From contig NZ_QGGB01000007.1 of the NCBI RefSeq assembly GCF_003150675.1, positions 62,001-126,000 of the forward strand: 64,000 bases of DNA, given 5' to 3'. Shown piece by piece: positions 41,566 to 43,022 of this stretch. Every line of letters begins with the position of its first letter. Position 1 is the first letter of the stretch. The translations under genes were made by a program, and so were the position numbers. The stretch comes from Rhodohalobacter mucosus. Lineage in GTDB: Bacteria; Bacteroidota; Rhodothermia; Balneolales; Balneolaceae. Under the pieces are notes generated by a model. That model saw only the letters and a list, made by a program, of their open reading frames with translations. It searched no databases and had not been told where the DNA came from.

Positions 41566-42315
41566 TCAGAAAAATGCCTGCGCCAGGAAAGCAAACATTG
41601 TCGCAAAAAGAGCGGAGAGCAATGTGCCGATCAGTATATACTCTGCAAAGGTACGATTGCCAAAATCAGGATACCTTACAATTCCCTTTGCGGCGAGGAT
41701 AAATCCAACGGCTGCATACTGCTGAAGCAGGATAAAAATGAAGACAAATATTCTTTCCAGGAAACCTATCACTCTTCCTGTCCTGTATTCCTGCTCATTT
41801 ATAACCTGTCCTTTGTTTCCTACCGGTGAAAGGCCCAGCCTGGTGAGCATAAGCCTTACCATGATATTGGCTTCGTTCAGTATGATTAAAAATCCAAAAA
41901 GAACGGCCTGAATCGCAAGCCAGTCGGTATCCTGATGCTCACCCTCTCCGCCGGGCGTAAACATTTCGATCAGGTAGTTTTCAAATCCATAAATCCACGA
42001 TACAGGATTCAGGTTGTAGAGACGGCTTGTTAAAAGAGCTATGATTGCGGTATGAATAAGCAGCAGAATGAACCTGTTTCTGTTCAGGTTTCTTGCATCC
42101 CTTTCAAGCAGACCTGTAAGCCAGGGCGATAATGCCAGATACATGAATAGCAGCAGGAAACCGGTATTAAGCTCAAAAAAAATCAGAACCGGAAAGGGGA
42201 TAAGGGCCATAATCACACGGCTGCGTACGTCTGTGGTACCCTCATCGCGCAGGGTGAGATACAGCCGCGAAAGCAGGATCATATTCATTACCGAGAAAAA
42301 CAGAATGTAGTTCAT
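41566..42315 (-). CDS. polytopic membrane protein, partner of SatD
   Basis: 249 residues with about seven hydrophobic segments (around 3-20, 35-62, 80-98, 130-150, 188-212, 228-249). Soluble loops include RSRV, a Gly/Glu-rich MFTPGGEGEHQDTDW and the cytosolic-type GNKGQVINEQEYRTGRV. No known domain is recognised. Its ATG lies 9 bp after the satD stop, so the two genes form one operon behind the palindrome array. A membrane effector or sensor partner of SatD is a reasonable inference, nothing more. Confidence 0.75.
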   Translation of the reverse strand: MNYILFFSVMNMILLSRLYLTLRDEGTTDVRSRVIMALIPFPVLIFFELNTGFLLLFMYLALSPWLTGLLERDARNLNRNRFILLLIHTAIIALLTSRLYNLNPVSWIYGFENYLIEMFTPGGEGEHQDTDWLAIQAVLFGFLIILNEANIMVRLMLTRLGLSPVGNKGQVINEQEYRTGRVIGFLERIFVFIFILLQQYAAVGFILAAKGIVRYPDFGNRTFAEYILIGTLLSALFATMFAFLAQAFF

Positions 42316-42324
42316 AATCTCTTG

Positions 42325-42948
42325 TTACTTATTCAGCAAATTCGCGATTCCCGAAGTGAATTCAAGTACGGCTTCCAGGTTACCGGCATGAATATTCTTA
42401 TAGACTGCCACATCTGATAGATTCAATTCCGCAGCAATCTGCCTGACCTCCATCCCGGAACAAAGGCGCTCCATAATCAGGAATCGGTTTAGTCTCCATG
42501 ATCTTAAATCGGCAGTCAGCAGTTTAAACGAACTGTTGGCCAGTGAATCATACAGGGTATGTCCCGTTTCAACCCTGAAAAGCTGTTTCTCTTTTTTAAG
42601 GACCTCAATACCGTTTCTGGCCCTGTGAAAAGCGGGGCCGTCCATTCCAATTGAGCGTGTTTTATTGACAGGGGTGTCAATACCTCCGGTGCCGATGGCC
42701 CAGCGAACCATCACCGGATGAATAGCCGCCGCGACAATCCAGATATGGTGAAAGAGGTCATTGGCATCTTTATAAAGTGCCTGGAATTCGTCGCCAAGGG
42801 TTAGTGTATAGGGTGATACAACGCTTTCACTTAAAAGCCTGTCATCCCCAAATATCTCTTCCAGAATCACCTGAGTCTTTCGCCGTGTTTCTCTGTCCAG
42901 CTCTTTCGATGATTCAAGATCACCAATGATGGCAATGTATTTATTCAT
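42325..42948 (-). CDS. satD: SatD-family protein with C-terminal helix-turn-helix
   Basis: 207 residues. The SatD core starts YIAIIGDLESSKEL (D10) and continues to SPYTLTLGDEFQALY (D53, E54), VRWAIGTGG (R82, G86-G89) and GMDGPAFHRARNGIE (about 101-115). The spacing and these residues recall class III nucleotide cyclases (two metal aspartates, GDxF/GDAxxA strand, R-x-GIxxG, and the G…A…R helix). I state this similarity as inference. The C-terminal 60 residues hold an HTH of sigma-region-4/LuxR type (VRQIAAELNLSDVAVYKNIHAGNLE). SatD is known from the streptococcal sat (secretion and acid tolerance) operon; function is unresolved. Confidence 0.85.
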   Translation of the reverse strand: MNKYIAIIGDLESSKELDRETRRKTQVILEEIFGDDRLLSESVVSPYTLTLGDEFQALYKDANDLFHHIWIVAAAIHPVMVRWAIGTGGIDTPVNKTRSIGMDGPAFHRARNGIEVLKKEKQLFRVETGHTLYDSLANSSFKLLTADLRSWRLNRFLIMERLCSGMEVRQIAAELNLSDVAVYKNIHAGNLEAVLEFTSGIANLLNK

Positions 42949-42951
42949 ATA

Positions 42952-43022
42952 AACCTGTTTGGTTTGTTTGTGATGTATTTAACCAAATCAGTTAATAATG
43001 TCAATATTTAACCTAAAAGGTT
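42952..43022. promoter_or_regulatory. three palindromic operators on an exact 29-bp period
   Basis: AACC-TGTTT-GGTT at 42952-42964, AACC-AAATC-AGTT at 42981-42993 and AACC-TAAAA-GGTT at 43010-43022 have centres at 42958, 42987 and 43016. The first lies 3 bp from the satD start codon. Identical half-sites and equal spacing (just under three helical turns) indicate cooperative binding of one regulator. SatD itself, with its HTH, is a candidate autoregulator. Confidence 0.75.

Follow-up and report, generated by a model that had tools for sequence, protein, structure and literature searches.

A palindrome array of constant 28–29 bp pitch upstream of satD in many bacterial phyla and haloarchaea, likely the operators of SatD itself

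The satD gene of Rhodohalobacter mucosus is preceded by three regularly spaced palindromes, and this array is one case of a widespread array found before satD in many bacterial phyla and in haloarchaea. Across these lineages the DNA words vary and the spacing of 28–29 bp remains constant; the sites, their conservation, their pitch and their words are all shown computationally. The array likely represents SatD's own operators, bound by SatD as stacked dimers that would repress their own operon, although there are no binding or expression data for this.

The window, meaning the whole stretch of 64,000 nucleotides that was analysed (contig NZ_QGGB01000007.1, positions 62,001 to 126,000), contains the following features at this locus, listed by position in the window:

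41566..42315, minus strand: operon partner, a 249-aa multi-helix membrane protein with a C-terminal domain in common with DUF3307
42325..42948, minus strand: satD, 207 aa, PF16264, with a cyclase-fold domain (~1-130) and a C-terminal HTH (153-206)
42952..42964, minus strand: putative operator 1, AACCTGTTTGGTT, perfect, overlapping the satD RBS
42954..42956, minus strand: AGG of the satD RBS, inside operator 1 and 5 nt from the ATG (42948), read from the sequence
42976..42981, minus strand: predicted -10 TAAATA, 17 bp from the -35 and abutting operator 2, inferred from the sequence
42981..42993, minus strand: putative operator 2, AACCAAATCAGTT, one mismatch, between the predicted -35 and -10
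42999..43004, minus strand: predicted -35 TTGACA, a consensus match lying between operators 2 and 3
43010..43022, minus strand: putative operator 3, AACCTAAAAGGTT, perfect, upstream of the predicted -35

The operator centres lie at 42958, 42987 and 43016, giving a pitch of exactly 29 + 29 bp, and the claim of the first-pass annotation that three palindromes stand at the start of satD with exact 29-bp centre spacing therefore held, with the same centres. Its claim that each site has one degenerate half failed for the outer two sites, which are perfect, and is true of the middle site only. The periodicity had also been judged not to be due to chance, and this held. There are 40 AACC-N5-GGTT sites with up to one mismatch in the window against 23.8 expected, or about 1 per 1.6–2.7 kb, and by arithmetic from the site density an exact 29 + 29 triple would be expected ~1e-5 times or less per window. 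A pattern search of the whole 3.9-Mb genome for AACYN5RGTT - N15-17 - AACYN5RGTT returned the satD array as its sole occurrence. The further claim that the first site covers the ribosome-binding region of satD was likewise upheld by the position of the AGG within operator 1.

Read on the satD strand, the predicted promoter is TTGACA-17-TAAATA, and operator 2 fills the spacer between its -35 and -10. This placement rests on a consensus match only. In the satD promoters of relatives, TTGA[CT] clusters at phase +12 from the centre of the upstream site, as does the -35 in the window, and at some satD loci there are 4–6 sites, with an array reaching upstream of the likely promoter. Phase +5 in the promoter scan was rejected, being a self-match of the operator.

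The first-pass annotation had proposed a search for the same spacing upstream of satD in related genomes, and this phylogenetic footprint was passed strongly, far beyond the genus. PF16264 was present in 76 of 394 Bacteroidota genomes, which together with further relatives gave 97 distinct satD genes, and their upstream regions were searched for similar palindromes in pairs, with every period from 18 to 60 bp scored. The best period was 28 or 29 bp in 76 of these 97 genes (29 in 55, 28 in 21), and was 55–58 bp, about double, in 15 more. In the controls, 28/29 was best in only 13 of 187 upstream regions of other genes (7%) and in 112 of 2425 shuffles (5%), and the single very high-scoring control region is itself an array, in the gap between satD and the DUF3307-like gene of locus L079. 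As periodic palindromes have two dyads per period, the automatically chosen dyad axis sometimes fell on the spacer, and GC-weighted scoring with a centre-free k-mer comparison was used instead. Palindrome-period scoring of the Bacteroidota set found no clear array upstream of satD in some loci (L039, L084 and L093).

Two arrangements depart from the general pattern. Loci L079 (2050-2300) and L084 have a satD without an upstream array of its own and a strong 29-bp array before the downstream DUF3307-like gene, with the palindromes ATACAACC/GGTTGTAT or TACAAGC/GCTTGTA. In L039 and L117 (Fodinibius), satD has no recognisable array although close relatives carry one, for which a recent loss of the promoter can be entertained as an explanation.

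A scan of GTDB genomes with the pattern MDGPAF[HY], made at the protein level only, gave 80 loci, mostly from other phyla, with Balneolaceae, Gammaproteobacteria, Verrucomicrobia, Chloroflexi, Spirochaetes, Ignavibacteria, Calditrichota, Acidobacteria and others represented; some of these loci come from the same species as in the Bacteroidota set. The best upstream period was 28 in 31 loci and 29 in 28, amounting to 59/80, with shuffles of the same set giving a best period of 27–29 in 148/1600, and the AACCn5GGTT word is retained within this MDGPAF[HY] clade. All five plasmid satD genes (three haloarchaeal and two alphaproteobacterial) also had a best period of 28 or 29, each scoring above all 60 of its shuffles. 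Since L191, L192 and L195 are satD operons that have 29-bp arrays and are carried by haloarchaeal plasmids, the system is present in archaea too. The upstream regions of Firmicutes satD were outside the comparison.

The SatD protein of the window passes Pfam PF16264 (E 2.4e-25, 89.9 bits against a cut-off of 29). No informative name was obtained from PHROGs, PADLOC or NCBIfam, and a PDB sequence search gave no significant match. The fold, which is shown computationally, comes from a nine-sequence AlphaFold2 model (pLDDT 93.9) in which an alpha/beta domain is followed at the C-terminus by a helical HTH whose helices span residues 153-163, 168-175, 179-188 and 191-206. The top Foldseek matches in the PDB were Ma1120, Rv1900c, Rv1264, MJ0145, the DosC GGDEF domain and OptS, headed by class III cyclases. 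The cyclase matches had a probability of 1.0 with moderate TM values, about 0.4–0.5, and with a TM of about 0.4 the likeness to cyclases is therefore a statement at the level of fold. The GD..xS and GD(E/S)FQ motifs are conserved, with D10, S14 and D53 in 164/165 homologues and Q56 in 162/165, and D10 and D53 are predicted, by motif and fold and without structure superposition, to be the cyclase metal-binding aspartates. Where the transition-state pair is concerned, the position equivalent to the Asn is F/L/Y (F107) and Arg111 is found in 118/165 (alignment by eye); the F/L/Y at the catalytic Asn position makes cyclase chemistry of SatD doubtful.

The array words follow the SatD clade, and include AACCn5GGTT, TTCAAC/GTTGAA, TTGAAC/GTTCAA, GTTTCA/TGAAAC, TTGCA/TGCAA, TATCGGC/GCCGATA, TATAAG/CTTATA, ATTCGA/TCGAAT and TATTAGTCT/AGACTAATA, among others. 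Where one genome has two satD genes (7 genomes), the two words are unrelated, with a similarity of 0.04–0.14 against a background median of 0.11, and in most comparisons the paralogue arrays resemble those of SatD relatives in other genomes. Diverged satD orthologues in different genomes, on the other hand, mostly share words (similarity ~0.2–0.47, with some values lower). Among 163 SatD proteins, array distance correlates with HTH distance once divergence of the N-terminal domain is removed, with a partial r of 0.17 vs <=0.08 in 300 permutations. N-terminal-domain distance keeps an equal partial correlation with array distance, as is expected from shared descent.

Covariation, again shown computationally, points to the recognition helix, which in the AACC clade reads S-E-V-A-V-Y-K-N around residue 180. 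Across 49 clear AACC arrays, the mutual information between residue 180 and the base flanking AACC was 1.50 bits (z 11), the first of 207 columns. Arginine is paired with G in 11/11 cases, lysine with C in 7/7, proline with T in 5/5 and valine with T in 8/10, while Q180 is split between A and C and does not fix the flanking base of AACC arrays. Arg-G, Gln-A and hydrophobic-T are chemically usual contacts. The R-G pairing was seen in Gammaproteobacteria, Spirochaetes, Verrucomicrobia, Myxococcales and Ignavibacteria. When the flanking base was predicted in genomes searched later, 4/4 callable bases were right, which is a small set, and L210, gapped by the aligner and read by eye, has SERAVYKN with six G flanks and fits R-G. 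In phylogenetically matched pairs the association of residue 180 was retained (p = 0.004), yet this was not the single best column and several others scored similarly, so that part of the signal is put down to shared ancestry, which is not fully excluded. The suggestion in the first-pass annotation that control is exerted by SatD's own HTH is supported by this covariation, by an array dedicated to satD and by words that follow the SatD clade and not the host.

In most satD loci for which the flank is present, the gene after satD codes for a membrane protein, and the junction is usually an ATGA overlap or a gap of a few bases; the operon is also shown computationally. The partner in the window had no Pfam match, PF11750 (DUF3307) included, and its C-terminal domain aligns to DUF3307-type partners with an hhalign probability of 99.7 (E 3e-25), with the pattern G..IG.LER...GF..AAK...R...EY.LIGTLLS. 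There are three partner types whose C-terminal domain is common with DUF3307, apparently so for the third, ~110-aa, type, and the haloarchaeal plasmid records have SatD annotated adjacent to DUF3307. SatD is now tied in this way to DUF3307-type membrane proteins. A fold search with the partner model (pLDDT 77.6) yielded nothing with an E-value under 0.001. Of 28 partner proteins, 2 matched MASE2 (a membrane sensor domain of cyclases and GGDEF proteins) with a best E of 0.0018; this is too weak a match to build on, though worth noting given the cyclase fold of SatD.

In the mechanism that we propose, SatD would bind each palindrome, presumably as a dimer, through its HTH, and the dimers would stack along the DNA at the fixed 28–29 bp pitch, presumably through their cyclase-fold domains. 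As this pitch corresponds to 2.67–2.76 turns, successive dimers would wind round the DNA instead of sharing one face of it. In the window, both the -35/-10 region and the RBS fall under the array, from which it is inferred that SatD represses its own operon, that is, satD and the DUF3307-type membrane partner. The signal that loosens or tightens the array would likely be a nucleotide bound to the cyclase-fold domain, with the partner perhaps in control of it. Binding, repression, cooperativity and the ligand are all inferred, and the tight cooperative control claimed in the first-pass annotation is plausible from the fixed pitch but not shown.

The alternative that survives best, although we consider it unlikely, is that SatD binds the array as an activator or a ligand-dependent switch and not as a plain repressor. 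In its favour are the several loci with 4–6 sites, whose arrays reach past the likely promoter on its upstream side, and a fold that suggests a ligand-sensing domain. Against it, an operator between -35 and -10, as in the window and many relatives, is the usual layout for repression, as is the operator over the RBS in the window.

Control of satD by a different host regulator bound to the array appears very unlikely. Direct data on SatD binding are lacking and multi-site promoters are common, but the words of paralogues differ within one genome and match those of SatD clade-mates elsewhere, the site covaries with SatD residue 180, the array is found nowhere else in the genome, and other phyla and haloarchaeal plasmid satD have the same pitch. 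There is similarly little to recommend the view of the array as a segregation, iteron or nucleoprotein-filament (centromere-like) site placed by chance in the satD promoter. Three to six regular palindromes beside the gene of their binder do recall iterons and parS/parC clusters, and the HTH of one SatD member weakly matches ParB-type models; however, satD arrays are mostly chromosomal, the neighbour is a membrane protein with no adjoining ParA or Rep gene, and the arrays enclose a consensus promoter whose phase recurs. RNA hairpins in the leader (attenuation), suggested by inverted repeats adjoining the start codon, are all but ruled out, since the predicted promoter contains operator 2 and has operator 3 upstream of it, and a helical-phase pitch with words that change by protein clade fits DNA recognition.

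The proposed autorepression by SatD has parallels in known systems. Lambda CI and iteron-type autorepressors likewise have a number of spaced palindromes over the promoter of their own gene, whereas the satD pitch is fixed at 28–29 bp across phyla while the word diversifies, and the regulator fold is unrelated. In its fold and two aspartates (D10, D53), SatD is like class III adenylyl/guanylyl cyclases, GGDEF, GTP cyclohydrolase III and mCpol/OptS, but at the position aligned by eye with the catalytic Asn it has F/L/Y, and its layout is a compact single domain with an HTH. Rv0386 of Mycobacterium and its relatives combine a class III cyclase and a LuxR-HTH in one protein (see PMC2447327, PMC3466318). 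Those proteins share with SatD a cyclase-type domain and an HTH in one chain, but they are large and have an ATPase domain, whereas SatD has only ~200 aa and is accompanied by a membrane partner and an operator array of its own. A search of the open-access literature found no description of a SatD operator, DNA binding or structure, and within that literature the autoregulatory array system is apparently undescribed.

SatD takes its name from the sat (secretion and acid tolerance) operon of Streptococcus mutans. Autoregulation would give a first testable function to a widespread family that is almost undescribed in the open-access literature searched. In S. pyogenes, satD was reported as an essential accessory gene (PMC11323703), and being essential yet accessory may reflect the lethal loss of the repressor of a harmful partner; this is an inference, the streptococcal locus being unexamined. 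A bolder reading, which remains no more than a possibility, has SatD as a transcription factor that senses (or makes) a nucleotide and whose dimers form a helical row on DNA, with the pitch set by the cyclase-fold domains, the word drifting with the recognition helix and the membrane partner feeding in the signal, all taken jointly. If true, this would be a one-protein cyclase-fold switch in bacteria and haloarchaea.

Constant spacing with drifting words makes these arrays a good natural series for reading an HTH recognition code, and the series also suits asking how protein-protein geometry constrains operators. The genomes with two satD-operon paralogues and unrelated words (G004, G015, G019, G110, G211, G257 and G325) offer a natural test of orthogonality.
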